The position numbers and the translations under genes were made by a program. From assembly GCA_027493955.1 (NCBI GenBank), contig JAOSJT010000001.1, positions 1,599,131 to 1,663,130 on the forward strand: DNA of 64,000 bases, read 5' to 3'. This document shows positions 1 to 14,336 of the stretch, one piece after another. Source of the stretch: Bacteroidia bacterium (GTDB lineage: Bacteria > Bacteroidota > Ignavibacteria > SZUA-365). The notes beneath the pieces are model-generated. The model was not told where the DNA came from. It searched no databases and was given only the letters and a program-made list of their open reading frames with translations. Positions within the stretch are counted from its first letter, which is position 1; each line of letters begins with the position of its first letter.

Positions 1-1191
1 CAATACCGCATCTGGAAATGCTTCTGCAATTTGGCCAACAGTTTTGTCGAGAACGATGAAGGCCTCTGCCCGTTGGAGGATGTGGGAAAGGTGGGCGTGG
101 TCAAACTGTTTGTAGGAATCAAGCAGTTGCATCAATGATGGATACGATTCTTCAAACAAGGATTTGACGATTGAAGTTGTCGTGGTACTTGAGTACAAGG
201 CCTTAAAGACCTTTTTCTTGAGTTCCTCTATCGTGTAGACCCTTTTCCTTTCCCGAAGTTCGTCAACAAGAAACTGATAAAGGGTACCGCCCTGCACCTT
301 CGATTGAAACGATTCCAGCTCCCCGGATTTCCGAAAACGCTTTGCCGCTGATAGCACACTCTTCAAAGCGTCGACATTCACAAATTGTGCGTAGATGCTT
401 GGAGCAAGTTTCCGAAATGAAAACTCTGAATTTCCTCTGATGAAGTCAGTGTTCGAGATGGCGAGAAATAGCGAAAGTTGGCTGTTCGAAAGATCGATTT
501 CCTCGAAGTGAATCCCTTCATATCTCAGGAATCCCCGAAGCCCCTTCCGCATATTAGTAATTGGCGTGTTGAGGCGGCACCCGTACTCGCCGACGAGGAA
601 AATGCCGATCTCATCCCTGAGATACCCAATCGATTGCATGTCCTGATGATGTAACGACTGAAGATAGGTGCTTGTAGCATAGTCAGGATGTGTCAAGTAA
701 GAAAGCTCCAGCCAGCGAGTAGCGGCCCCTTCGTCGATTGTGACCCCTCGAATCGAACGCCACAGAAACGGATGTCTCTCCACGCCGTTCATCCGTGAAT
801 ATTTCTGGATCGAAGACGACTGTCGCCGTCGGATTGCTTCGACCTTCTTGAACGGTGAGTTGGCGAAGCGATGATGGTACATGTACTCTGTAGACCGCAC
901 TCTTCGGACAGGGGGACGGCCCCTGACCACGACATCGTTGTCCACGAGATATTGGAGGTACTGCGTTGGATTGTGGATGGAGAGACTCTGGAGCACCTCG
1001 ACGTTTAGAGGAACGAAACCCTTGCTGTCCTCAAGGTCATCCTCAATTAGTAATCTGTCGGATAGAATGCCGAGTATCGAGATAAGCTTCTCCCGGTCGA
1101 AGTTCCGGATCGACGAAGGTGGATGGTCGTGGAGGAGCATGTCAATGTCAAGATCGGCAGGGATCTGGTAGTGTTCAGTCTCAATCGCCAT
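1..1191 (-). CDS. Family-A polymerase palm-like protein, C-terminus beyond window edge
   Basis: An open minus-strand frame of 397 codons starts at the ATG at 1189-1191 and runs off the left edge without a stop, so the C-terminus is missing. There is no good ribosome binding site. The middle reads YGCRLNTPITNMRKGLRGFL, then EIDLSNSQLSLFL, which resembles polymerase motif A (D-x-S-x). Near the edge come FEESYPSLMQLL and LSHILQRAEAFIVL, the pattern that in such proteins precedes a C-terminal HDS motif C, expected just outside the window. Proteins of this kind are common uncharacterised genes of Bacteroidota mobile elements. From the motifs I infer a polymerase- or primase-like replication role for the island. 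It is divergent from the restriction genes. I recognise the motifs, not a named family, so function is tentative. Confidence 0.5.
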   Translation of the reverse strand, partial: MAIETEHYQIPADLDIDMLLHDHPPSSIRNFDREKLISILGILSDRLLIEDDLEDSKGFVPLNVEVLQSLSIHNPTQYLQYLVDNDVVVRGRPPVRRVRSTEYMYHHRFANSPFKKVEAIRRRQSSSIQKYSRMNGVERHPFLWRSIRGVTIDEGAATRWLELSYLTHPDYATSTYLQSLHHQDMQSIGYLRDEIGIFLVGEYGCRLNTPITNMRKGLRGFLRYEGIHFEEIDLSNSQLSLFLAISNTDFIRGNSEFSFRKLAPSIYAQFVNVDALKSVLSAAKRFRKSGELESFQSKVQGGTLYQFLVDELRERKRVYTIEELKKKVFKALYSSTTTTSIVKSLFEESYPSLMQLLDSYKQFDHAHLSHILQRAEAFIVLDKTVGQIAEAFPDAVL

Positions 1192-1578
1192 TACAATCGA
1201 CCTGTCTCAGTTGATGGTGTTGTCCGGCTCTGTTGTCATCGCACCGTCCGCATGGCTCCGGCTTCCGCAAGCACAGACCTGATTGTCTTCCCGAAGTGCG
1301 GGTGCCGAAAGAGTCGGACGAGCGTAAAGCCGGGGAAGCTTCTGGATGAATCGGAGTTCTGCGGTATTTCGGTGGCAGACCATGTAGCTAAGATACGACG
1401 GAGCGGAAGAACTGAAAGCATGTTTGGTAACGTCGCTTGCTACGTTTGTCGGAGCGGAGAAAATATTCTGGGCAGGTTGCCCAATCCATGCAGATTCGGT
1501 ACTTTTCAATGACAATCCAGATTCTGAACTCTTCGTCTCGATTGTCCGAGCATAGCACAACCAGCAGAGGCACACGAC
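1192..1578. other. Intergenic region between divergent genes
   Basis: 387 bp lie between the polymerase-like gene (minus) and Mod (plus) and should hold both promoters. I could not pick out a convincing -35/-10 pair. Short frames on both strands here have low-complexity, shadow-like products and no ribosome binding site, so I call none of them. Confidence 0.4.
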
Positions 1579-3552
1579 ATGACCGAACTCATATGGGATG
1601 GTAAGTACAAAGACGGTAAAAAAGTCGCCCCCGTCCGAATCCCTCTCCCTTTCCAGACCATTGAGACGGTAAACGAGTCCACCGAGGATCGCAAGAAGAC
1701 CATCGATCTCTTCGCCTCTGGCAAGCCCACCGAGTGGCGTAACCGTCTTATCTGGGGGGACAAGAAGTACGTCCTGCCGAGCCTGCTTCCAGAGTTTGCT
1801 GGGAAGGTTGACCTAATCTATATCGATCCACCATTCAATGCTGGGGCAGATTTCACTTACAGGGCTACGATTGCAGATAATCCCGATACTGAAGAAGATG
1901 AACGTACAGAATTCGTCAAGGAACCAAGCATCATTGAGCAGAAGGCATACAGAGATACGTGGGGACGTGGTTTGGATTCATATCTTCAATGGTTCTACGA
2001 TACCATAGTGATTCTCCGAGACCTACTTTCACAAGACGGATCGCTCTATGTACATCTCGATTACAATATGATGCACTACGCAAAGGTAGCCCTTGATGAG
2101 GTGTTCGGTCAGGATTATTTTCAAAATGAAATAGTATGGAAACGCACAGGAGCACATAATTCAGCGAAGCGGTATGGTCCAGTCCATGACGTTATTCTAT
2201 TCTATACAAAGAGTGCAACCTTTGTCTGGAATCAACAATACCAAGACAACAGCAAATATGTCGAACAAAGATACGCTACGGTGGATGAGAACGGTCGGCG
2301 GTTTCAAGCAGTGAGTCTGATAGCGGCAGGCATCCGTTCGGGTTCGTCCGGTCGTTCTTGGAGGGGTATTGATGTAACTGCAAAAGGTAATCACTGGCGA
2401 TACACAATTGCCAAGTTGGATGAACTCGACAAGAACGGGGATATTTATTGGCCTGAGCGTGGTGGTCTTCCTCGACTAAAAATGTATGCCGAGGATGTGA
2501 AAGGTTCATTAGTACAAGACTGGTGGGACGATATTCCTCCTGTGAATTCGCAAGCCTCTGAGCGTCTTGGGTACCAAACTCAGAAACCAGAGGCTCTGCT
2601 TGAGAGACTGATACGAGCCTCGTCAAATGAAGGTAATTTGATTCTCGATTGCTTCTGTGGGTCAGGCACAACCGTCGCAGTATCAGAAAGGTTAAAGAGG
2701 CGATGGATATCGTGCGACCTCGGACGCTTTGCTATTCATACGACGAGAAAACGATTACTTCAAATGGAGGGGATCAGCCCTTTCGTCATACAAAACCTTG
2801 GAAAGTACGAACGACAGGCTTGGCAAGAATTAGAATTTCAACATCCCGAGAATCGATCAACTCAAGAGCAATTATATCGCTATTTTATCCTTGATCTTTT
2901 CAGAGCCGAACCGGTAAAGGGTTTTCTGTGGCTACACGGCAAGCGTGGCAAGAGGATGGTTCACGTCGGAGCTGTCGATGCTCCAATCTCTTTGGGAGAT
3001 GTCAAAGCAATCATTCAGGAGTTCTGGAAATCTGCGGGGAAAGCTACGGACATTAACACCAATGGAGTCGATATCCTCGGATGGGAATTCGCATTTGACA
3101 TCAATGAGACTGCGAGGCAACAGGCTATCGCCAGCAAGGTGGACATCAAATTCAAGAAGATTCCTCGTGAGGTACTGGAGCAGAAAGCTGTCGATGCTGG
3201 AGACATCAAGTTCTTCGAGCTTGCGGGTCTGGATGTGAAGACGAAGGCGACGGGCAAAGCTGTACGGTTGTCATTGAATGATTTCATCATTCCTCCCGAT
3301 GACGTGCCCGACGAGGTGCGATCAGCAATCACGCACTGGTCGCAGTGGATCGATTACTGGGCTGTGGACTGGGACTACAAGGATGACACCTTCCACAACG
3401 AATGGCAGACGTATCGCACAAAGAAAGAACCTAAGCTACTGCTTGAAGCAAAGCACGAGTACGAATCAAAGGGAAACTACATTGTCGTCATCAAGGTGAT
3501 CGACATACTCGGCAACGACACGACGAAGGCCATCAGCGTAAAGGTTGGTTAA
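1579..3552 (+). CDS. mod: Type III restriction-modification DNA methyltransferase (Mod)
   Basis: This 657-residue protein is a site-specific DNA adenine or cytosine N-methyltransferase that transfers methyl from S-adenosylmethionine. The catalytic motif IV DPPF is at residues 83-86 (IYIDPPFNAG). The SAM-binding motif I, CFCGSGTT, comes later, near 358-365. This IV-before-I order defines the beta class used by type III Mod subunits. The methylase core ends near residue 400, and about 250 further residues probably include target recognition. The last 40 residues (HEYESKGNYIVVIKVIDI, then a Gly-Asn and alternating V/K) look like the final strands of a PKD/Ig-like fold, which is unusual for an enzyme. 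A weak AGAGG precedes the ATG. The stop is 1 bp before the restriction subunit's ATG, so the two are surely co-translated. Confidence 0.9.
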   Translation: MTELIWDGKYKDGKKVAPVRIPLPFQTIETVNESTEDRKKTIDLFASGKPTEWRNRLIWGDKKYVLPSLLPEFAGKVDLIYIDPPFNAGADFTYRATIADNPDTEEDERTEFVKEPSIIEQKAYRDTWGRGLDSYLQWFYDTIVILRDLLSQDGSLYVHLDYNMMHYAKVALDEVFGQDYFQNEIVWKRTGAHNSAKRYGPVHDVILFYTKSATFVWNQQYQDNSKYVEQRYATVDENGRRFQAVSLIAAGIRSGSSGRSWRGIDVTAKGNHWRYTIAKLDELDKNGDIYWPERGGLPRLKMYAEDVKGSLVQDWWDDIPPVNSQASERLGYQTQKPEALLERLIRASSNEGNLILDCFCGSGTTVAVSERLKRRWISCDLGRFAIHTTRKRLLQMEGISPFVIQNLGKYERQAWQELEFQHPENRSTQEQLYRYFILDLFRAEPVKGFLWLHGKRGKRMVHVGAVDAPISLGDVKAIIQEFWKSAGKATDINTNGVDILGWEFAFDINETARQQAIASKVDIKFKKIPREVLEQKAVDAGDIKFFELAGLDVKTKATGKAVRLSLNDFIIPPDDVPDEVRSAITHWSQWIDYWAVDWDYKDDTFHNEWQTYRTKKEPKLLLEAKHEYESKGNYIVVIKVIDILGNDTTKAISVKVG

Positions 3553-3553
3553 T

Positions 3554-6136
3554 ATGGGAAAGAGCAAAAAGGCTTCGAAGGAAGACGACCTGTTCGGAAT
3601 CGCAGAACAGATGAAGACAGCCGTGTGCGTCCCTGCGATTCGCAACGCTGTCGATGTCTGGAGGTCATCGGGCTACAAAGGTGTCACCGACACAACTCAC
3701 GAACTTTTGAACTTTTGGTTCAAGACCGATCATCGCCTTCCGACTGGTAGAAGCTTCTCTTACTACGCCGCTCAGCGTGAATCTATAGAGACACTCGTGT
3801 ATCTCTACGAGGTGGCAAAGACGAGATCGAGGAAAGCTCTGCTTGAGCAATACGCTTACGATACGAAAGACCTCCGCTTGCCGCCGTATGACGATTTTGC
3901 CCGTTACTGTATCAAGATGGCGACTGGAAGCGGCAAGACAAAGGTCATGGCGTTATCGATTGTTTGGCATTACTTCAATGCCGTTAGGGAGGACTCAGAG
4001 GACTTTGCCAAGACCTATCTCGTGATCGCCCCAAACGTCATAGTCTTTGAACGACTTCGCACGGATTTCGCCAGCGGTCACATCTTCAAAGCCGATCCCA
4101 TGTTCCCGAAGCATTTCGAAATGTTCTGGGATTTCGAATGCTACATGCGTGGCGACGGCGAAAGGGCTTGCTCGGAAGGAGCACTGTTCCTCACTAACAT
4201 TCAGCAGTTCTACGAGCGTCCGAACTCTCAGAACGGCAATGAGCCGGATGTCATGACTGCGGTTTTGGGACAAAAACCCAAGACCGAGAAGATGGATATT
4301 TCGGACTTTGATGAACGAATTGAAAATCGTGATGGTCTGCTCCTTGTGGTGAACGATGAAGCTCACCACACACATGATGAGGAGAGTGAGTGGAACAACG
4401 TGATCCGAAGACTTCATACCAGCACAAGCATCGCATCCCAACTCGACTTCTCGGCGACTCCTCGGTACAGCAAGGGAGGGCTGTTCGCTTGGACTGTGTA
4501 CGATTACCCGCTCAAGCAGGCGATTCTTGACAACATCGTGAAACGCCCAGTGAAGGGAATCGCAAAGGTGACCGAGGCGAAATCAAATGTCGCATCAACT
4601 CGATACGCTGGATTCCTCATTGCTGGTGTAGAGAGGTGGAAGGAATATAACAAACAGCTTCAGCCGTTGAAGAAAAAACCAATCCTGTTCATCATGATGA
4701 ACAGCACCGCCGAAGCAGACGATATCGGGGAATGGCTCCGCACCAAATATCCGAAAGAATTCGCAGGCGATAGGACGCTTGTCATCCATACGAATCGGGT
4801 AGGCGAGATCGTCAAGGGAGAAGAAGATTCTGCCAGACGGCTTGCTCGTGAAGTTGACGAAGACGAATCGCCTGTCAACGCTATCGTCAGTGTGTTGATG
4901 TTGCGTGAAGGCTGGGATGTCCAAAACGTGACTGTCGTAGTTGGATTGAGACCATACACTGCCAAGGCGAACATACTGCCCGAACAGACAATTGGTCGTG
5001 GACTCCGACTGATGTTCCGCACCGCAGGAAGCGGATACACGGAACGAGTGGATATCATCGGGAACAAGGCGTTTCTCGAATTTGTCGAGGAGCTTGAAAC
5101 ACTCGAAGGACTCAAACTCGACACTTTCGAGCTTGGTAAAGACAAGTTAAAGATCATCACGATCCAGCCCATCGATGAGAAGCTGAAAGCAGATATCGGT
5201 GTGCCTGACATCTCACCTTCACTTGTGCGAAAGACATCCCTCGCCGATGATATCGCTGGACTTGATGTCACGAAATTCAAGATTAATCCGTTGCCACTGA
5301 CTGCTGAAGAGCAATCCAGCAAATCCTTCCAGTACGAGGGGAGAGATATTCTCACGGATGAGATTCTTTTCTCACGTGAATTCACACTTCCTCCCGCCCA
5401 AACCGCTCAGGAGGTCATTGGTTACTACGCCCGTCGGATTGCCGCCAACCTTAAGCTCCCCTCACAGTTTGCGGCCCTTACTCCCAAGCTGAAAGAGTTC
5501 TTTGAGAAGAAAGCCTTCGGAAAGGAAGTCGAACTCAACGATCCCGCAGTCGTGCAGGCAATGAGTTCCAATCTCGCCAGCTACGTTGTAACGAAGGAAT
5601 TCGAAAAAGCACTGCGAGACATCATCGTTGAAGAAAAGACACCAGTCTTGCTCACTCCCGAACGGTTGCTCTCCTCGACTCCTCCATTTCCCTTTTCATC
5701 GAAACGAAAGATCCTCGAATCGAAGAAGTGCGTGTTCAACTACGTGCCCTGCGACAACGAGCTTGAATACGCTTTCGCCAAGTTCCTCAATGCGGCAGAC
5801 GATGTGGAAGCGTTCGCCAAGATTCCTGAGCAGTTTGGATTCGCAATCGAGTACCCCGACTCGCTCTCGAACATCAGGAACTATTTCTCTGACTTTGTAG
5901 CCAGATTGACCGATGGCACCCGATGGATCATCGAGACGAAAGGCAGAGAGGACATCGAGGTGCGATTGAAGGATCAAGCGGCAGAACGGTGGTGTGAGAA
6001 TGCGACACTCCTCACTCAACATAGTTGGTCGTACCTCAAGGTTCCTCAGTCCGATTTTGAAAAGCTTAGGCCCAGTAGATTTGCAGAGCTTGCATCTTGC
6101 CTCAGCATTGACAAATTGGCCTTTACTAACGAGTAG
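3554..6136 (+). CDS. res: Type III restriction endonuclease subunit (Res)
   Basis: This 860-residue helicase-nuclease partners Mod: it translocates with ATP and cuts unmethylated DNA. Superfamily 2 motifs are in order: Walker A ATGSGKT near 122-128, DEAH box NDEAHH near 267, motif III-like DFSATPR, and motif VI QTIGRGLRL near 480. A C-terminal PD-(D/E)XK nuclease is visible as FSDFVARL, then WIIETKGRED (near 778-797). Length and order fit type III Res. An in-frame TTG lies at 3545, but I choose the ATG at 3554, directly after the Mod stop, because it avoids overlap. The next gene begins 11 bp after the stop, so all five cargo genes probably form one transcript. Confidence 0.9.
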   Translation: MGKSKKASKEDDLFGIAEQMKTAVCVPAIRNAVDVWRSSGYKGVTDTTHELLNFWFKTDHRLPTGRSFSYYAAQRESIETLVYLYEVAKTRSRKALLEQYAYDTKDLRLPPYDDFARYCIKMATGSGKTKVMALSIVWHYFNAVREDSEDFAKTYLVIAPNVIVFERLRTDFASGHIFKADPMFPKHFEMFWDFECYMRGDGERACSEGALFLTNIQQFYERPNSQNGNEPDVMTAVLGQKPKTEKMDISDFDERIENRDGLLLVVNDEAHHTHDEESEWNNVIRRLHTSTSIASQLDFSATPRYSKGGLFAWTVYDYPLKQAILDNIVKRPVKGIAKVTEAKSNVASTRYAGFLIAGVERWKEYNKQLQPLKKKPILFIMMNSTAEADDIGEWLRTKYPKEFAGDRTLVIHTNRVGEIVKGEEDSARRLAREVDEDESPVNAIVSVLMLREGWDVQNVTVVVGLRPYTAKANILPEQTIGRGLRLMFRTAGSGYTERVDIIGNKAFLEFVEELETLEGLKLDTFELGKDKLKIITIQPIDEKLKADIGVPDISPSLVRKTSLADDIAGLDVTKFKINPLPLTAEEQSSKSFQYEGRDILTDEILFSREFTLPPAQTAQEVIGYYARRIAANLKLPSQFAALTPKLKEFFEKKAFGKEVELNDPAVVQAMSSNLASYVVTKEFEKALRDIIVEEKTPVLLTPERLLSSTPPFPFSSKRKILESKKCVFNYVPCDNELEYAFAKFLNAADDVEAFAKIPEQFGFAIEYPDSLSNIRNYFSDFVARLTDGTRWIIETKGREDIEVRLKDQAAERWCENATLLTQHSWSYLKVPQSDFEKLRPSRFAELASCLSIDKLAFTNE

Positions 6137-6147
6137 AGCGTATTGCT

Positions 6148-8490
6148 ATGAGTAACAGTGATCTTCTTTCTGGACTCTTCGCATATCCCGCAACGCCCAC
6201 GCCAGTCGGTGCAACAATATGTACGGCATTGGATAAATGTCACCTCGACTCCAGATATCGTGGCCTCGTATCTTGGGAGGAATTGGATATCCCCGGCAGG
6301 TTGATCCAGACAGAAATACTCACAAAGATTGACTCAGGTAACATCTTCTTTGCTGATATCACATTTCCGAACTTCAATGTGGTTTTTGAGATAGGGTATG
6401 CAATCGGCTCGAAGAAAAGATGCATTATTACCAAAAACGCCGCTTTGAAAGACGACCAGCAGTTATTCCGTGAGATAGGTGTATTTGATACCCTTGGCTA
6501 TGCTCCATATCAAGATTCGAATGGCCTCTGCGAGATAATTACTGGAATGCGTGACAAGCTTGCGTTGTCATTTGAGATTGAATCGCTTAATAATTCTGCT
6601 CCAGTGTACCTCGTTCTCCCCGATGTAAAAACAGATCTCGAAACACACTTGATTTCGAGAATCAAGAAGGCGAGGCTGTTCTATCGTTCATTTGATCCTC
6701 AAGAGACTGGACGACTCTCAGCCCTCGACGCAATTGAGCAAGTATCTGTATCGCACGGTATCATTGTACCTTTTGTGAATAGCGTATACAAGAAGAGCGA
6801 CATTCACAATATGCGAGCGGCTTTTATTGCGGGACTCGCATTCGGCATGGAAAAGAAGATCCTGCTCCTTCAGAATGGCGATGATCCGATACCACTTGAT
6901 TACAGAGATTTCGTATCGAGATATCGCCATCCCGGAGAAATGGATAATCATATCTCCGAATTTGCATCGGCAATAACAGCTTCAATCCAGTCCTCAAGGC
7001 CCCCCATTATTGATCGTGCTGACAATCTTCTTAAGCGATTAGATCTGGGTGCTTCTTCTGCGGAAAACGAATTCCGTGACTTGGGTGAATACTATTTGGT
7101 TACGTCGGAGTATCAGAGCGTTGAACGAGGAGAGGTGCAGGTAGTAGCAGGAAGGAAGGGGTCTGGCAAGTCTGCATTGTTTTTCCAATTGAGAGATAAG
7201 ATTCGCCGGAACAAGCGGAATGTAGTCATAGATCTAAAACCGGAAGGATTTGAGCTTCTCAAATTCAAGGAACAAGTATTGGATTATCTCGAAGAGGGAA
7301 CGAGAGCACACACGATCACGGCTTTTTGGGAGTACCTTCTTCTTCTTGAGATATGTCACAAAATTCTGGACAAAGACAGAATTACTCATGTCAGAAATCA
7401 CAATCTGTACGAACCATATCAACGTTTATCTGAGCTATACGCTTCTGATTTGTACATTTCAGAAGGTGATTTCGCAGAAAGAATGCGTTTCATCACGCAA
7501 AAGATCACAGAAGAGTACTCGCTTCATCGTGGTGATGAAAAATCGGTTCATCGCCTTCAGACTGGCGAAATCACAAAATTGCTACACCGGCACGATGTTC
7601 CGGAACTGCGAAACATTCTCCTTAAGTATCTTCCCAACAAGGAATCACTTTGGTTGCTCTTAGACAACTTGGACAAGGGCTGGCCTCCGCATGGTATCAC
7701 GACTGACGATGTTTTGTCATTAAGGTGCTTATTGGACGCTATGGCAAAACTCCAAAGAGAGTTTCGTAACCGTGGCATTACGACCAATGGAGTTGTATTC
7801 ATCCGCAACGATGTCTATGAGAATTTAATTTCCTCACTTTCGGATAGAGGAAAGATATCACATGTTTTGCTTGACTGGACTGACACGGACCTGTTACTCG
7901 AAGTGCTTCGACGACGATTCATCAAGATTGGCATGGATGAATCTCTATCATTTGTGGATATATGGCATCAGATATGTGTCAGTCATATCAACGGACAGAA
8001 CAGCGAAGGCTACATCTTGGATCGTTCAATGATGAGGCCACGTTCGCTGATTGAGTATGTAAAGCAATGCAGAGGTCATGCGATCAATATGGGCCACTCA
8101 AAGATTGAGGTAGAGGATATAATACGGGCTGAAGAGGTGTATTCCACCAAGCTTGTCACCGACATAAGTCTCGAAATAGGGGACGTAATGCCTGTTGCAT
8201 CGGATGTCCTCTATGAATTGATAGAATCAACCTCGGAACTGTCGTATGAACAACTACAAACTGCGGTTTCACGATTGGATATAGACGAGACTCAAAGACT
8301 TGCGGTTATTGATCTGCTCATATGGTACGCAGTTATTGGATTTCGAAGAGAAAGCGGCGAACCAACATTTATCTACACCGTCGGATATGATATGAAGCGT
8401 TTTAATGCATTGCTTCGAAATAGAGAGGATTCTGGAGTGAAATACGTGATCAATCCTGCGTTTTGGTCTGGGTTGGAAATATCACACTAA
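6148..8490 (+). CDS. Double TIR/deoxyribosyltransferase-like domain fused to P-loop ATPase
   Basis: The product is 780 residues. Residues 1-145 form a Rossmann-like domain with the signature FFADITFPNFNVVFEIGYAI (about 67-87), the pattern shared by nucleoside 2-deoxyribosyltransferases and some TIR-like NAD-cleaving domains; the Glu in FEIGYA would be catalytic. Residues 150-290 form a second related domain (VSHGIIVPFVNS, then AAFIAGLAFGMEKKILLLQ). From about 300 there is a P-loop ATPase with Walker A GRKGSGKSA near 335-343 and a Walker B-like strand LWLLLDNLDKG near 502-512, resembling the Sll1717-type ATPase family. The layout of nucleotide-hydrolase effector plus ATPase sensor is typical of abortive-infection proteins. 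I infer a defence role from architecture and from its place 11 bp after Res. Substrate and trigger are unknown. Confidence 0.65.
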   Translation: MSNSDLLSGLFAYPATPTPVGATICTALDKCHLDSRYRGLVSWEELDIPGRLIQTEILTKIDSGNIFFADITFPNFNVVFEIGYAIGSKKRCIITKNAALKDDQQLFREIGVFDTLGYAPYQDSNGLCEIITGMRDKLALSFEIESLNNSAPVYLVLPDVKTDLETHLISRIKKARLFYRSFDPQETGRLSALDAIEQVSVSHGIIVPFVNSVYKKSDIHNMRAAFIAGLAFGMEKKILLLQNGDDPIPLDYRDFVSRYRHPGEMDNHISEFASAITASIQSSRPPIIDRADNLLKRLDLGASSAENEFRDLGEYYLVTSEYQSVERGEVQVVAGRKGSGKSALFFQLRDKIRRNKRNVVIDLKPEGFELLKFKEQVLDYLEEGTRAHTITAFWEYLLLLEICHKILDKDRITHVRNHNLYEPYQRLSELYASDLYISEGDFAERMRFITQKITEEYSLHRGDEKSVHRLQTGEITKLLHRHDVPELRNILLKYLPNKESLWLLLDNLDKGWPPHGITTDDVLSLRCLLDAMAKLQREFRNRGITTNGVVFIRNDVYENLISSLSDRGKISHVLLDWTDTDLLLEVLRRRFIKIGMDESLSFVDIWHQICVSHINGQNSEGYILDRSMMRPRSLIEYVKQCRGHAINMGHSKIEVEDIIRAEEVYSTKLVTDISLEIGDVMPVASDVLYELIESTSELSYEQLQTAVSRLDIDETQRLAVIDLLIWYAVIGFRRESGEPTFIYTVGYDMKRFNALLRNREDSGVKYVINPAFWSGLEISH

Positions 8491-8527
8491 AAAGACGCAC
8501 AGTATTAAATAGCAGTCGAGGTTTCCG

Positions 8528-8998
8528 ATGCCCAAAAGTGACACTCAAATGGTAGCAACTGCCGGGGAACACTTTGTAGCATTCCGTCTGGCCCAGCTTG
8601 GTTTCGTCGTGGCTATGCCGAGGCTCAATTCTCCTGCCGTTGATTTGATGGCAAGCAGTTTCGATGGATCAAAGATGGTCACGATTCAAGTAAAAACTGC
8701 CTCTTGGGCAGAAAGAACAAGGGGGCGAGGTAAAGATAAGCGGCTGGATCATGTCGAGTTCCCATTAGGACACAAAGCCGCCTCTCGCAGTGACCCGAAC
8801 TATTTTTATGCCTTTGTCGATCTGAGAGGAATGAACACCCATACGACACCCACCGTGTACATCGTTCCTTCTGAACATATAAAGCAATACTGTGGAGATT
8901 GGACGAGCAAGTATTCAATGATTCGGTGGCACCCAAAAACAGAGGAAGTGGATCAGTTCAAAGAAGAGTGGGGCCTTATCGTTGATGCGTTACGATAA
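8528..8998 (+). CDS. Small PD-(D/E)XK nuclease-like protein
   Basis: This 156-residue protein has the core of a PD-(D/E)XK fold: GEHFVAFRLAQLGF (Glu14) on the first helix, an acidic Asp39 in PAVDLMAS, and QVKT (Gln54-x-Lys56) on the next strand. Gln in place of the usual Glu is tolerated in several families of this fold, such as the DUF4365 and intron-endonuclease-like groups. A Lys/Arg-rich loop follows (RTRGRGKDKR), and the C-terminal half has aromatic strands. It lies 37 bp after the ATPase fusion, in the same operon. It could be a second nuclease effector or a small nuclease of the mobile element. The fold call is fairly safe; activity is inference. Confidence 0.55.
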   Translation: MPKSDTQMVATAGEHFVAFRLAQLGFVVAMPRLNSPAVDLMASSFDGSKMVTIQVKTASWAERTRGRGKDKRLDHVEFPLGHKAASRSDPNYFYAFVDLRGMNTHTTPTVYIVPSEHIKQYCGDWTSKYSMIRWHPKTEEVDQFKEEWGLIVDALR

Positions 8999-9036
8999 CA
9001 ATTCAAACCTGTTACCGTGATCTGACGGAGGGAAAT

Positions 9037-9699
9037 ATGGATTCAGCAATGAATGAATCTTTACTTCAAAATCTTGAGAATGTTGAACAGGTACTCAAGA
9101 AGTCGTACCAGCAACTCATGGAAATTATGTCCAAGAGTGGTTGCCACATGGACTTCTACACTATTGGGACGGTCAAGAGGTCATTATCATTGGCAAACGC
9201 TTTCATCCTACTCATTCGGAACCAAAATTATTTTGTCCCATCTGCACTGCTTCGTCTTCAGATTGACAATTGTTTGAGATATCATGCGACTTATCTTGTG
9301 GCTGATCCGAATATTTTCGCAGAAGCGATTATGAACGGCGAAAGAATTGATCATTATCGTGATCGAACGAACCACAAGATGCGGGATGGCTACCTCGTTG
9401 ATTCATTGTCGGATAAATACCCATGGGTACGTCTACTTTACGATGAGGCATGCAAAGATGTGCATCTTTCGGATAAGCACCTTCTTTCGATATTCTCATC
9501 GACAGATCAACAATCATTTACCGCTCGAATTGAAGTGTCTCCATTTGACCGGTACATTGATTTCGACGAGTGGAAGCATCTGATTGACGACTTCACCATG
9601 ATCACTGTTCTCTTGAATACTCTCGTAGAAGGTTGGATAAGAGAGAAACGCTCAAAGCAGAAAAGCACTGGGTCTACCGAAATAATACCTGATGGGTAG
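9037..9699 (+). CDS. Unrecognised helical protein in defence operon
   Basis: 220 residues. A GGAGG run lies shortly before the ATG (9028-9032), giving a good ribosome binding site. The sequence is mostly amphipathic helix. It contains VKRSLSLANAFILLIRNQNY followed by ALLRLQIDNCLRY, an arrangement seen in DUF5677/HEPN-like helical proteins. I do not see a clean R-x4-6-H ribonuclease motif of HEPN toxins, so that link is only a suggestion. It ends the plus-strand cargo run, 38 bp after the nuclease-like gene. I do not recognise a specific family. Confidence 0.5.
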   Translation: MDSAMNESLLQNLENVEQVLKKSYQQLMEIMSKSGCHMDFYTIGTVKRSLSLANAFILLIRNQNYFVPSALLRLQIDNCLRYHATYLVADPNIFAEAIMNGERIDHYRDRTNHKMRDGYLVDSLSDKYPWVRLLYDEACKDVHLSDKHLLSIFSSTDQQSFTARIEVSPFDRYIDFDEWKHLIDDFTMITVLLNTLVEGWIREKRSKQKSTGSTEIIPDG

Positions 9700-9717
9700 T
9701 GTCTTCAGCGTACAACA

Positions 9718-9873
9718 GTGGGTTACAGGAGCATTGTTACTGAGGTATTAACCCTTTTCTTCATCACCTCCGACGATCTCGTCGATGTTGCCCCCATGCC
9801 ACTCGACGAAGCCCAGCGGCGATCTCGGATCTCGAAGCTTCTCCGGACTGTTGATCAGGGAGCACTGGCATGA
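9718..9873 (+). CDS. Possible small ORF overlapping the next gene
   Basis: A GTG at 9718 opens a 51-residue frame in the same phase as the preceding gene. It ends ITSDDLVDVAPMPLDEAQ and then a basic helix (RRSRISKLLRTV). The TGA stop overlaps the ATG of the next small frame in an ATGA arrangement, typical of translational coupling. An ATG inside, at 9796, could also start it. Helical composition and the coupled stop/start argue for coding; there is no homology to rely on. Confidence 0.25.
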   Translation: MGYRSIVTEVLTLFFITSDDLVDVAPMPLDEAQRRSRISKLLRTVDQGALA

Positions 9874-10103
9874 AGAGACCCATGCCTCGCCACGACTACG
9901 ATATGTCCGGTGACGTATACGAGACCACGTTGCAAGTTTTGGCCTTCAACGTCATGCGACTCGTGGAATATGATCGACATCAGACAGGGACTCCAACGTC
10001 TCCGATTGCTCCAAGGGGTCTTGAGGACTTTATTAACAGGGCCATCATGTATCTCGCCGCATACCACCGTCTGCGGAAGGAGGAGAAACACCACACTGCA
10101 TGA
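9870..10103 (+). CDS. Small hypothetical protein, 77 residues
   Basis: The frame starts at the ATG that overlaps the preceding small frame's stop, with GGGAGC about 7 bases upstream. The product has a compact middle (YETTLQVLAFNVMRLVEYDR) and a helical end (LEDFINRAIMYLAAYHRLRK), with composition like a real soluble protein. I recognise no family. Its place between defence cargo and recombinase suggests a mobile-element accessory protein. Confidence 0.4.
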   Translation: MKRPMPRHDYDMSGDVYETTLQVLAFNVMRLVEYDRHQTGTPTSPIAPRGLEDFINRAIMYLAAYHRLRKEEKHHTA

Positions 10104-10432
10104 GGAAGATGTTGGACGGCCCTACTCAGCGATGGGAGTTCTTCCTTGCTGGTCGTAGTCGCATCCGGGCCGTGTGGCATCGTTCGATCCATTGATTCCG
10201 CATGAAGTTCTTCTCAGTCTCGAAGACATGTGATCCGGATCGCAACGGAGATTGGGACATCAAGAGATCGTCACCGGGAACACTTCTCTTCGACATCAGC
10301 ATTGAGATCTCTGGGAAGTCAATCTCATCATCTGCTTCCTGAAAGAATTCTTTCTGGCTCCAAGGACACCAGTCATGATCTCCTGCAACAGAGTAGATCG
10401 CTTCCATGCTGTATGATGATGTCTGAAGGAAC

Positions 10433-10735
10433 CACAGCTTGGAACCAAGGATCTGATTTCAATGATACAGGAACTATGCACCTCAAAGGAATGAAACACC
10501 CCCATGGTAGACAAACAGAGTCCCCAGAGGGATCACAGCTTGGAACCAGTGATCTGATTCCAATGACACAGGAACTATGCACCTCAAAGGAATGAAACAC
10601 CCCTATGGTAGACAAACAGCTTTCCCGGAGAGATCACAGCTTGGAACGAAGCATCTGATTCCAATGACACAGGAACAACTGCACTTCAAAAGGGAGGAAC
10701 ACCCCTATGTCAGACAAACAGCTTCCCCGGAGAGA
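10433..10735. repeat. 101-bp tandem direct repeats, three copies
   Basis: The string CACAGCTTGGAAC begins at 10433, 10534 and 10635, exactly 101 bp apart, and the intervening sequence matches closely (GGAATGAAACACCCC followed by a GACAAACAG run). The third unit decays near 10700-10735. Identity looks above 85 percent between the first two units. The period excludes protein repeats and CRISPR. Role unknown. Confidence 0.8.
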
Positions 10736-10894
10736 CCCTTCACTTGGGGGAAGAATGGTGGAAAGCTTCTCGCCTGTGACGAAGAAAGGCCGCAGATGCC
10801 CGGATCAGGCACCTACGGCGGTCTGGGAGCGGAGATCTGCGGTGCCGGAGGGGGAATCAGGCCCCCTGCTCCTGATCGGTCTTGTAGGAGGCAA

Positions 10895-11113
10895 GAAGCG
10901 GTTGGAACAAGTCGAGCAAATCCTTCGTCGCACGTGTTGGTTGGGTAAAAAAGTTCGATAACTTGATAGTTCGGTGTACCAGCAGGGACAAGGATGTGAA
11001 GGATGAACCAGTCAGTCTCGACTCAGACTTGTCGTCAGAGGAGGGGTTGGAAGCGAAGCATGAAGTCCTTGGTTTCGGAAGTTGGGATGAGGAAAAAGGT
11101 TCGATATCTGTCC
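10895..11113. repeat. Pair of diverged ~70-bp repeats next to the inverted-repeat end
   Basis: Segments 10895-10970 and 11041-11113 are recognisably related. Read on the minus strand, both encode a peptide of pattern F-F-x-x-P-T-x-x-T-K-D-x-x-x-x-F-Q-P-L-L. The second continues directly from the duplicated recombinase fragment, the first lies just beyond. They look like successive old copies of a recombinase C-terminus or element end. Confidence 0.55.
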
Positions 11114-11769
11114 CACGCTGTCCACAGTTCAGGACAATCGCCGTTCTTTTCACCGAGAACGGCGATTCCGTTTCTGCACATCGTCGCTATAACTGCAATG
11201 GAGTCAAGCGGTTGGCGATACTCGACATGGAGAGCACCCTCTGTCCAAACGCAGTTCGAGAATACAGCGGAGGTGATCGTCCACCGAGTATCGGCATCTC
11301 CCAGCAAGAACCTGTCCCGCAGTGAGTTCTGAAGTTCGAGAATTTGCCTACCGATTCGGATCGAGTGTCCGTTCATCGACCTAAGGATTCTCAGATCTGC
11401 TTCGATCCCTTCGATCTCGCTCTCCACTTCTTCCCGGTAACTGCGATACTCAGTTGCAGAGATAAGACCGCTGAGCTTGTCTCGGTACATCATCTCGACC
11501 TGCTTGCGAAGACCCAGAATGCGGTCTCTCTCTTTGGACTCCTGCTCCTCCTTCAAGGCGTCCTGCTCGTGCGAGTTCGTATCGAGTGCTCTACTGAGGG
11601 TTTTAAGAACATCTTCGTCCAATCGTAGATTCTGAAGCCGATCCGCAATCGCCGAGGTTATCGATTCGTCCTTGATGTGAGGTCTGGTACACCGTTGCGG
11701 TCGCCCAGTGCAATGCCAGTAAAGGAATTTTCCCTTCTTGAGGTCGGCACTCATCGTGCGATTGCACTG
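11035..11769 (-). pseudogene. Inverted duplicate of serine recombinase 3' end
   Basis: On the minus strand this encodes the recombinase C-terminal region from the zinc ribbon's CNRTMSADLKKGK through GEKNGDCPELW, residue for residue identical to the complete gene at 12409-14043. It lacks the catalytic N-terminus. After the shared part it continues with a different 28-residue tail ending FMLRFQPLL and a stop. As it stands it is a 5'-truncated fragment. If the segment between the two repeat arms were inverted, this tail would become the end of a complete recombinase, so it may be an alternate 3' exon-like end rather than dead sequence. Confidence 0.8.
11121..11769 (-). repeat. Left arm of 649-bp inverted repeat
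   Basis: The arm is the reverse complement of 13336-13984. Every position I compared agrees and the lengths are equal. The outer end is TCCACAG at 11121 and the inner end is CACTG at 11769. Beyond both ends similarity stops abruptly. Confidence 0.9.
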
Positions 11770-11830
11770 AATACAATCTGAAAGGGTAGTTATTACATCA
11801 GCAACAACTACACTTTCAAATGGAGGTAAA

Positions 11831-12016
11831 ATGAAAAAGAAACCGAAAGACCTTTCTGAGTTCAGAGCGTTTCGGATTGTTGAAAACGTGAACCTGTCTG
11901 GAGTTGAACACAGACCTATTGACGAAGTCTGTTTCGTTCGATTTTCGGTGATTGAGGACTTCGATTTTGCCGAGACACGGATTCAGCCGATCAAAGAATC
12001 TTCAGTTTCAACGTGA
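11831..12016 (+). CDS. Small hypothetical protein inside inverted-repeat segment
   Basis: 61 residues, with a near-ideal ribosome binding site (GGAGGTAAA directly before the ATG). The product begins MKKKPKDLSEFRAFRI and is charged, with no membrane segment. It is convergent with the next gene and overlaps it by 26 bp. It lies in the 1.57-kb segment between the repeat arms, so its orientation would flip on inversion. Family not recognised. Confidence 0.45.
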   Translation: MKKKPKDLSEFRAFRIVENVNLSGVEHRPIDEVCFVRFSVIEDFDFAETRIQPIKESSVST

Positions 12017-12227
12017 TACGAGCAACGAGGATATCACTGCCATCAACAGTTCCGAGTTCATGAATCACATCGGTCACTTCCATGTCGCCATCTTTTCCGG
12101 AGAGTTTCTCCCCGATTCTGGGAATGATGGGTGTGAAACCAATCGGATACACTTTGTCGGCCTTTCCTGTCGGACCTGAAAAAGTCACAACATACTGAAG
12201 GTTCGGTGATGCGGAATTTGTAGCCAT
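11991..12227 (-). CDS. Small hypothetical protein, 78 residues
   Basis: I choose the ATG at 12225-12227 because GGAGATAAA sits directly upstream. The longer frame to 12317 has no such site. The product (MATNSASPNLQYVVTFSG, then KADKVYPIGFTPIIPRIGEK) looks like a small beta-rich protein. Together with the convergent 61-residue frame it is the only other content between the repeat arms besides the recombinase N-terminus. Function unknown. Confidence 0.5.
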   Translation of the reverse strand: MATNSASPNLQYVVTFSGPTGKADKVYPIGFTPIIPRIGEKLSGKDGDMEVTDVIHELGTVDGSDILVARITLKLKIL

Positions 12228-12408
12228 TTTATCTCCTATTAGTGAGGGTTGCAGGTCGCTCCTGCAAGCATGGGAAATTATGATTCCTTCCAATGCCATC
12301 CAACCATTCGTTTCCACGGAGATGGGTCAAGACTGAGCAGTATCATCAAGAGCTTCGACATTCGGGATCTGTGCCACCTCATATGACAGATCGCAAGAAT
12401 TTGAAAAA

Positions 12409-14043
12409 ATGCTGAAAAATCGCTATTTTAAAGCAAAAAGAATGCGAGTAGCAGAAAACAAAGTCCTCGGTGTACTGTACGCTCGTGTCTCCTCGCAGGA
12501 ACAACTTCGAGAAGGATACAGTGTTGACGCACAGCAACGCCTCCTTCGACGATATGCGAAAGAGAACGGCATCCGGATCGTTGAGGAGTACATTGAAGTC
12601 CAATCGGCAAAACTTGCTTCTCGGCAGAAATTCCATGCAATGATCCAGTATCTGAGGTCGAGAGAGCCGGAAGTTGCAGACGGTTCTTCCAGACTTGCGA
12701 TTTTAGTCGAGCGTACCGATAGACTTTACAGAAATTTCAAAGACTTCGTCACCTTGGATGACCTCAAGGTGGAGATTCACATCGTCAGCGAGAACATCGT
12801 GATCAGCCGTGATTCTCGTTCAAACGAGAAATTCATTCATGGCATCCAAGTTCTCCTTGCGAAAAATTATTTGGATAATCTCAGCCAAGAAATCCGAAAG
12901 GGACTAACTGAGAAAGCGAAGCAGGGATTCTATCCGGGGCATGCACCAGTGGGGTATCGCACGGTACGTGTTGATGGTAAAAGCCTCATGGTGGTTGATG
13001 AAAAGGAAGCTGAAGTTATCCGAAATCTTTTCACATCATATGTCAACCAGTGCCGTTCGCTCAATGCCCTGCAAGAAAAATTCTTGGGCACCGTCCTCCG
13101 TAGACCAAGTTCTGTTGACTATCGACTGACACGTTCCAACATCAGTCGGATTCTCAACAACCCGATCTATTGCGGTCAATTCATCTGGAAGAAGAAGCTC
13201 TATCATGGAGTACATGTCCCAATCATAGACAAAGCGTTGTTCCAGAGGACGCAGGAGATTCTCAGGGAGAACCAGAAGACACCGAGCAAGAACCGCACGA
13301 GGAAATGGGCGTACCAAGGTCTGATGAAGTGCGGGCAGTGCAATCGCACGATGAGTGCCGACCTCAAGAAGGGAAAATTCCTTTACTGGCATTGCACTGG
13401 GCGACCGCAACGGTGTACCAGACCTCACATCAAGGACGAATCGATAACCTCGGCGATTGCGGATCGGCTTCAGAATCTACGATTGGACGAAGATGTTCTT
13501 AAAACCCTCAGTAGAGCACTCGATACGAACTCGCACGAGCAGGACGCCTTGAAGGAGGAGCAGGAGTCCAAAGAGAGAGACCGCATTCTGGGTCTTCGCA
13601 AGCAGGTCGAGATGATGTACCGAGACAAGCTCAGCGGTCTTATCTCTGCAACTGAGTATCGCAGTTACCGGGAAGAAGTGGAGAGCGAGATCGAAGGGAT
13701 CGAAGCAGATCTGAGAATCCTTAGGTCGATGAACGGACACTCGATCCGAATCGGTAGGCAAATTCTCGAACTTCAGAACTCACTGCGGGACAGGTTCTTG
13801 CTGGGAGATGCCGATACTCGGTGGACGATCACCTCCGCTGTATTCTCGAACTGCGTTTGGACAGAGGGTGCTCTCCATGTCGAGTATCGCCAACCGCTTG
13901 ACTCCATTGCAGTTATAGCGACGATGTGCAGAAACGGAATCGCCGTTCTCGGTGAAAAGAACGGCGATTGTCCTGAACTGTGGAGATGGGGGGAATCGAA
14001 CCCCCGTCCGAAATGCAGAACCTGCAACTTGCTACGCTCGTAG
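12409..14043 (+). CDS. Large serine recombinase / integrase
   Basis: This 544-residue site-specific recombinase of the large serine (resolvase/invertase) family is the likely integrase of the island. The catalytic Ser is in LYARVSS (Ser28 from the first ATG), with the conserved REGYSVDAQQ downstream. A recombinase domain follows (GHAPVGYRTVRVDG), then a zinc ribbon with C308-x2-C311 and a later Cys pair, and a long coiled coil near 380-450 (EQDALKEEQESKERDRILG). The last 19-20 codons are antisense to ssrA (WGESNPRPK), showing that the gene was joined to the attachment site there; the native tail may be the one at 11035. An alternative start is the ATG at 12442; neither has a strong ribosome binding site. 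The 3' 649 bp are duplicated in inverted orientation. Confidence 0.92.
   Translation: MLKNRYFKAKRMRVAENKVLGVLYARVSSQEQLREGYSVDAQQRLLRRYAKENGIRIVEEYIEVQSAKLASRQKFHAMIQYLRSREPEVADGSSRLAILVERTDRLYRNFKDFVTLDDLKVEIHIVSENIVISRDSRSNEKFIHGIQVLLAKNYLDNLSQEIRKGLTEKAKQGFYPGHAPVGYRTVRVDGKSLMVVDEKEAEVIRNLFTSYVNQCRSLNALQEKFLGTVLRRPSSVDYRLTRSNISRILNNPIYCGQFIWKKKLYHGVHVPIIDKALFQRTQEILRENQKTPSKNRTRKWAYQGLMKCGQCNRTMSADLKKGKFLYWHCTGRPQRCTRPHIKDESITSAIADRLQNLRLDEDVLKTLSRALDTNSHEQDALKEEQESKERDRILGLRKQVEMMYRDKLSGLISATEYRSYREEVESEIEGIEADLRILRSMNGHSIRIGRQILELQNSLRDRFLLGDADTRWTITSAVFSNCVWTEGALHVEYRQPLDSIAVIATMCRNGIAVLGEKNGDCPELWRWGESNPRPKCRTCNLLRS
13336..13984 (+). repeat. Right arm of 649-bp inverted repeat
   Basis: This arm carries recombinase codons from the zinc ribbon to the attachment junction. 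It ends at TGGA (13981-13984), the last four bases of the tmRNA gene on the other strand. The distance between the arms is 1566 bp. Confidence 0.9.
13938..13969. other. Perfect 12-bp hairpin beside the attachment junction
   Basis: Arms AATCGCCGTTCT (13938-13949) and AGAACGGCGATT (13958-13969) flank an 8-base loop, 12-15 bp from the ssrA junction. The mirrored copy is at 11136-11167. No T-run follows on either strand, so a terminator is unlikely; it could be a recombinase accessory or folding site. It lies inside the recombinase coding sequence. Confidence 0.6.
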
Positions 14044-14336
14044 TCAGTCTTTTAGGTTTCGCCCGCGTACTGCCCGACAGACAGGACGTGTGCGCGAACT
14101 AGTCAGGAGATGTGTTTTGGCCCCCTCCCCTGGCGCTTGGGGTGCCTAGTCCGTCTTTTGCGACGTCACTTCCTTTAGCCGACGGGCGCGCCTCCGGAGG
14201 ACGTGGCGGTCAATTAAGCCGCCAGTGCGTAATCGTAGTTGGCAATTATACCAGTTGACACAGGATTAACGTGCTTATGTCAGGCACGGAACGCGTTTGC
14301 ATGACCCCGACATCCCGTCGAAACCATTGCATCCCC
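13981..14336 (-). ncRNA. ssrA: Transfer-messenger RNA (tmRNA)
   Basis: tmRNA rescues stalled ribosomes and tags their products for proteolysis. The 5' end GGGGATGCAATGGTTTCGAC starts at 14336, with the hallmark GGTTTCGACGGG. The 3' end has a T-arm (GGGGGTTCGATTCCCCC) and closes with CATCTCC, which pairs with 5' GGGGATG to make the tRNA-Ala-like acceptor stem (one G-U). The tag frame at 14214-14243 reads ANYDYALAA then TAA. CCA is not encoded. Length, about 356, is normal. The island recombinase is joined at its 3' end, which remains intact, as expected when integration restores the gene. Confidence 0.95.

Follow-up and report, generated by a model that had tools for sequence, protein, structure and literature searches.

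Elements and phages with large serine recombinases of the A118, TP901-1 and phiC31 type insert at a single site and are then bounded by attL and attR, and the element described here shares with them this mode of insertion, the domain order of the recombinase and, by sequence, the recombinase family. It differs from them in that attP lies within the recombinase coding sequence, at tRNA and tmRNA targets, and in that the element holds, in its interior, a second attP in inverted orientation. An attP inside the integrase gene, which is severed by integration, is likewise found in the archaeal 'suicidal' tyrosine integrases of the SSV type (SSV1, pTN3 and pT26-2), for which it has been proposed that other integrases come to the rescue and that parts of the gene are exchanged between elements through homologous inversion, self-disrupting recombinases being described as exclusively archaeal (PMC8371274). 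Here, in contrast, the enzyme is a bacterial serine recombinase, only a short C-terminal tail is lost, and an intact gene end is present in the same element.

In the integration-dependent immunity of mycobacteriophages such as BPs, attP is also located in a coding sequence and integration alters the C-terminus of the protein (PMC4557955, PMC9934374), but the protein affected there is the repressor, whereas here it is the integrase itself. The nearest geometry is that of the yeast 2-micron plasmid with its Flp/FRT system, a circle that is likewise split by an identical pair of inverted repeats with a recombinase site in each copy (PMC3147054, PMC6594588), although Flp is a tyrosine recombinase acting on identical, freely recombining sites without chromosomal integration, and recombination between two attP sites is not expected here. 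No description of a serine integrase with attP in its own gene, or of an inverted attP duplicate, was found in the open-licence literature, which is weak evidence of absence.

Anatomy of the element inserted in ssrA

The features of the locus are collected in Table 1, with positions counted from the first letter of the window (the whole stretch of DNA analysed, 64,000 nucleotides). Arms B and B' proved, when compared base by base, to be exact reverse complements over 649 bp with 0 mismatches, which is far beyond chance, and both end at a TCCA(CA)/TGTGGA junction, so that the perfect repeat and its TGGA/TCCA limits stand as they had been described in the original prediction. A search of the genome against itself showed that positions 11000-11126 recur, inverted and without mismatch, about 15 kb upstream, the first sign of a second inverted repeat of 1,364 bp and 100% identity (arms A and A'), which adjoins the 649-bp repeat and overlaps it by the six bases TCCACA at 11121-11126. 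Because this second repeat abuts them, the 649-bp arms are not the terminal repeats of the element, as had been supposed: position 11121 marks an attP that lies inverted in the interior of the element, which continues to -3562, the second repeat having been overlooked since part of it lies outside the window.

The sequence to the left of -3562 starts with a terminator-like hairpin, and in the relative G003 an unbroken ssrA is followed by the same hairpin and the same downstream sequence, which represents the empty site. When both flanks of the element were joined and compared with G003, one 481-bp match of 85.9% identity ran straight across the junction, indicating that the entire 17.5 kb are an insertion and that the left junction at 11121 is internal. 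The insertion is a precise one at an RNA gene, its attR-side arm end coinciding with the 3' end of the tmRNA detected by ARAGORN, and the sites at -3562, 11121 and 13979 fit attL, an inverted attP and attR, respectively, of an element spanning -3562 to 13984. An element restricted to 11121-13984 was rejected, given that its left flank recurs in inverted form 15 kb upstream and that the flank matching the empty site begins at -3563. Two tandem elements in direct orientation were also rejected, since such a layout would not yield an inverted attP.

The two ends of the element, A and B', are different sequences, as opposed to those of a transposon with terminal inverted repeats, and each of them has its inverted partner inside the element. 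Closed in silico, the element gives a 17,541-bp circle in which two identical 2,007-bp inverted repeats, with one attP each, split M1 from M2; this is the arrangement of a 2-micron-type circle with site-bearing repeats, and the circular form would also resemble a chloroplast genome in having two identical inverted repeats. An ORF of 102 aa (L007:13691-13999) is unbroken across the A/M1 boundary at -2199 and the recombinase is unbroken across the M2/B' boundary, whereas both ORFs are truncated at the boundaries at 9762 and 11769, indicating that the inserted piece is 9763-11769, an inverted copy of the attP region. This 2,007-bp duplicate comprises the recombinase 3' end, attP and the other element end, and because it is carried along, an intact 3' end with attP remains in the integrated element, in the opposite direction. 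Taken together, these sequence features argue strongly for the anatomy given in Table 1.

Regarding the surroundings of the duplicate, positions 9720-9762 and 11770-11820, if joined, would fold as one long hairpin (-19.8 kcal/mol), and this pairing of its flanks places the inverted duplicate in the loop of the former hairpin. Three 101-bp tandem repeats, about 88% alike, occupy 10427-10735 in the mostly non-coding arm A' and are possibly origin iterons or a binding array. Here as at the att junctions in L023, L025, L021, L022 and L026, a hairpin of unrelated sequence is found just inside the element at each RNA gene, as if the element brought a new terminator to the RNA gene that it enters. 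In the relatives G008 and G011, contigs start with the ssrA 3' end (G008:C332:1-66, L084, and G011:C309:1-46, L085), as they might if other elements were integrated in ssrA there.

Table 1. Features of the element in ssrA and of its surroundings (negative positions lie upstream of the window).
Feature	Positions	Strand	Remarks
Window	C1:1599131-1663130		genome is a single 5.24-Mb contig
Whole element	-3562..13984		17.5 kb, inside ssrA, partly upstream of the window
attL core, L/TGTGGA/A	-3562..-3557		outside the window
M1, cargo segment between A and A'	1..9762 in the window		starts at -2198; 11,961 bp in total
Type III restriction-modification genes	1579..6136	+	cargo in M1; methylase 1579-3552, restriction subunit 3545-6136
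Large protein, weak TIR-type match	6148-8490	+	cargo; below curated cut-off where one exists
Weak PDDEXK_5 match	8528-8998	+	cargo; below curated cut-off where one exists
Weak DUF5677 match	9037-9699	+	cargo; below curated cut-off where one exists
Arm A' of the second inverted repeat	9763..11126	-	mate A at -3562..-2199 (C1:1595568-1596931), outside the window
Native 28-residue tail TAWDRYRTFFLIPTSETKDFMLRFQPLL and stop, coding sequence	11035..11121	-	beyond the internal attP; kept in relatives
Core of internal, inverted, intact attP, B'/TGTGGA/A	11121..11126	-
Arm B, inverted spare copy of recombinase 3' part	11121..11769	-	in frame with the native tail
M2, unique 1,566-bp segment between B and B'	11770..13335		carries the recombinase 5' part
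Large serine recombinase gene, integrated form	12409..14043	+	544 aa; residues 1-525 native, remainder ssrA antisense
Arm B', recombinase 3' part up to attR	13336..13984	+	from repeat comparison
Hairpin just inside the element	13939..13968	-	z-score -5.7; candidate replacement terminator for ssrA
attR core, B'/TGTGGA/ssrA	13979..13984	+
ssrA (tmRNA) gene	13980..14336	-	ARAGORN; tag ANYDYALAA; integration target

The recombinase and its two C-terminal tails

The recombinase has the catalytic domain, Recombinase domain, zinc ribbon and coiled coil of a large serine recombinase: Pfam detected Resolvase (PF00239), Recombinase (PF07508) and the zinc ribbon (PF13408), long helices are present in the structure model, and the protein matches the PHROG integrase family phrog_95 and, by sequence, the A118 integrase structure 4kis. 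Because the integrase gene itself contains attP, it is severed on integration, but as a serine recombinase that loses its last 28 codons only, the enzyme is not a split tyrosine recombinase of the SSV type. Flipping 11770-13335 in silico yielded a left-facing recombinase of 553 aa ending FQPLL, the same protein as that encoded in the circle. The two C-terminal forms that had been predicted thus exist, and inversion of the 1.57 kb does rebuild the predicted left-facing gene; however, FQPLL had been taken for the alternate tail, whereas the in silico circle encodes this end, which is therefore the native tail, kept in relatives, and the ssrA-antisense tail is a product of integration.

The native tail is retained in a second element of the same genome (P2, see below), in a fossil copy in arm A and in the relative G087. 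Relatives without tRNA fusion end in a comparable native helical tail, such as IWGALVNDVRTFFLDKM, and tRNA-fused ones end in antisense-tRNA residues. Two viral contigs, L048 and L050, are 90% identical up to L048 base 11444, where the tmRNA starts, and L050 reads on into a native tail; this divergence at the tmRNA indicates that the tail swap by integration occurs in nature. Codon differences between the two tails and the fossil copy are concentrated in the third position (12/24, 12/25 and 15/30 in the pairwise comparisons), a slight yet consistent indication that the protein is constrained. With AlphaFold2, run on the spare C-terminal half together with its relatives, the tail (residues 217-244) is predicted to be mostly part of two helices, with a block pLDDT of 85-93, and a fold search of the PDB with the C-terminal model gave weak matches only, the best two being serine integrase complexes.

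The fossil copy just mentioned is an integrase end found in arm A, at 10890-10980 on the minus strand and in its copy near C1:1595714-1595804, in which a tRNA-Glu-type core (GGTACACC) is followed by a tail like that of P2 (NFFTQPTRATKDLLDLFQPLL). From these remains, an older integrase/attP module seems to have been replaced by the present one.

A second element and relatives in other genomes

The same genome encodes a second recombinase (C1:2985111-2986574), 43% identical to that of the first element (P1), with an inverted partial copy nearby. This second element (P2) is located at the 3' end of a tRNA-Glu gene, with the core TTTGGTACACC at attL, at the internal attP and at attR, and its repeats of 887 bp and 1,945 bp overlap at the internal site, in a mirror image of the layout of the first. 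The internal copy encodes the tail RFRAFFLSPTRATRELIDLFQPLLRG, the corresponding tail in the first element being RYRTFFLIPTSETKDFMLRFQPLL. Away from the att edge its B arms show no difference, and its A arms differ by one interior base and by five bases near the inner edge. The arms are thus separate copies, and this distribution of differences is consistent with a homogenised interior. Past the second element, at C1:2995962-3016260 (L024, L072), there are two further remnants of recombinase 3' ends, both in its orientation and one of them with its native tail, which makes the tRNA-Glu locus a tandem array of related elements.

Spare inverted 3' ends of recombinase genes, which it had been proposed to seek beside ssrA in related genomes, were found at tRNA-Asn genes in two of them. 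In G087 there is a 127-bp inverted copy with one mismatch, which reads into the tail NEIRTFFSENPNAEF, and in G320 a 275-bp inverted copy of 91% identity, with a frame open to the contig end; within the DNA examined, both have the 3'-end repeat alone. A third case is probably G011, whose contig opens with a 55-bp reverse complement of the recombinase interior, as expected where a short-read assembly breaks at a repeat; a match to the tail in this genome was discounted, since it runs through the tRNA.

Among 23 recombinases surveyed, the frame enters a tRNA or tmRNA in 12 (P1, P2, G011, G087, G320, G099, G176, G063, G067, G247, G648 and G150). Spare ends are present in five of these 12 (P1, P2, G011, G087 and G320) and in none of the 11 others (one-sided Fisher p = 0.024, in a small, post hoc sample), and as some contigs are short the lack of a spare end is uncertain in individual cases. 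The tail-swapped orientation is found in all readable integrated copies (P1, P2, G087 and G320). As many of the tRNA-fused relatives have no spare end, it is not required. A shared motif at the inner repeat boundaries was looked for and not found, the boundaries differing in every case. None of 20 relatives on viral contigs has an inverted repeat within the stretches examined, and searches of plasmid and phage records returned distant relatives only.

With respect to cargo, a SmaI-type endonuclease and a methylase are encoded in M2 of the second element, and between recombinase and spare end there are homologous type III genes with an AbiV-type gene in G011 and an OLD-TOPRIM ATPase in G320, whereas M2 of G087 is essentially the recombinase alone. 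From this gene content, P1, P2, G011 and G320 look like defence-carrying elements. Both elements of the genome also encode related proteins that match no Pfam family, of 683 aa (-860..1191 in window numbering, minus strand) and 520 aa (L024:2551-4113, minus strand), in which the motifs IDLSNSQ and HDALL/HDSIS recall polymerase motifs, and which are possibly a replication protein.

Possible roles of the inverted spare end

The location of attP inside the recombinase gene, the tail swap, the inverted intact 3' end with its attP and the recurrence of this arrangement can be read directly from the sequences compared here. We infer from them an inversion that would restore the native-tailed enzyme, and a selection for this restoration. 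Integration at the 3' end of the tmRNA gene, or of a tRNA gene in relatives, cuts off the last 28 codons of the recombinase, and antisense codons of the RNA gene take over, as the sequences show. Recombination between B and B' would then flip the 1.57-kb segment and rejoin the recombinase to its native tail, either through homologous recombination of the host or with the internal attP and attR as substrates of the recombinase, both of which, as the original prediction held, are plausible. The integrated element could in this way alternate between a tail-swapped and a native-tailed integrase, which would keep it from being stranded by an integrase whose action cuts the integrase gene, and in the circular form the two identical repeats would offer two equivalent attP sites. 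We assign a probability of roughly 0.5 to this reading, namely that a bacterial serine integrase whose attP falls within the 3' end of its gene keeps, in an inverted spare end, an intact tail that is available while integrated and recoverable by inversion. What speaks most strongly against it is that every element whose state can be read (P1, P2, G087 and G320) has the swapped tail, and that the spare end is missing from many relatives.

The spare end might instead be a by-product, the attP region having been copied in inverted orientation by template switching or break repair in a replicating circle, with no selected role and with the likeness of the arms due to gene conversion or recent origin. 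The boundaries that differ from case to case with no common motif, the 100% identity of the P1 arms, which fits a recent event, and the lack of a spare end in many relatives are all consistent with such an origin, but the arrangement recurs with highly diverged recombinases, always covering attP together with the 3' end of the recombinase gene and restricted to cases in which that gene is severed, and the spare frame of G320 has stayed open despite a 9% difference between the arms, so that we regard a mere by-product as rather unlikely. An assembly artefact, in which a fold-back chimera would have created the inverted second copy of the 649-bp arm, is hardly credible, even with P1 arms 100% identical, because the topology recurs in P2, G087 and G320 with arms that are not identical and hence are separate copies, and because a fold-back would not put an exact attP between two nested repeats.

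Two further explanations would give the repeats a role other than repair of the integrase. Serine integrases are not known to recombine attP with attP under normal conditions, and it is improbable that recombination between the attP repeats of the putative circle reorients one of the two replication forks with respect to the other and thereby amplifies the element. Such a replication or copy-number device would be akin to that of the 2-micron plasmid, with which the circle shares its geometry of two identical inverted repeats holding a recombinase site (PMC3147054, PMC6594588), and the large protein of unassigned family common to both elements is a candidate replication protein, but G087 and G320 have only the 3'-end repeat in the DNA examined. 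A switch of cargo expression, by which the repeats would turn the defence genes of M1 or M2 towards or away from a putative promoter, is suggested by the defence-type cargo lying between the repeats in P1, P2, G011 and G320; it is very improbable, given that M2 of G087 contains little besides the recombinase and that the repeats are in every case centred on attP, a placement that cargo switching would not require.

When attP is part of the integrase gene itself, the question arises of how the element escapes again, to which the archaeal literature has answered with rescue by a related integrase from outside. The bacterial serine recombinases compared here share this self-severing design, which is common among those that target tRNA and tmRNA genes, and a subset of them has a built-in spare end. 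More tentatively, this subset may form a class of bacterial serine integrases that sever their own gene and bring along an inverted copy for its repair, in which inversion between the spare and the severed 3' end toggles between a tail-swapped, settled state and a native-tailed state that is mobile or integration-competent, with the C-terminal tail as the switch. The question of escape becomes directly testable with one recombinase, and if the proposed recovery of the native tail by inversion is true, this would be a natural two-state serine integrase producing two C-termini from one locus, which would be relevant to the control of directionality.
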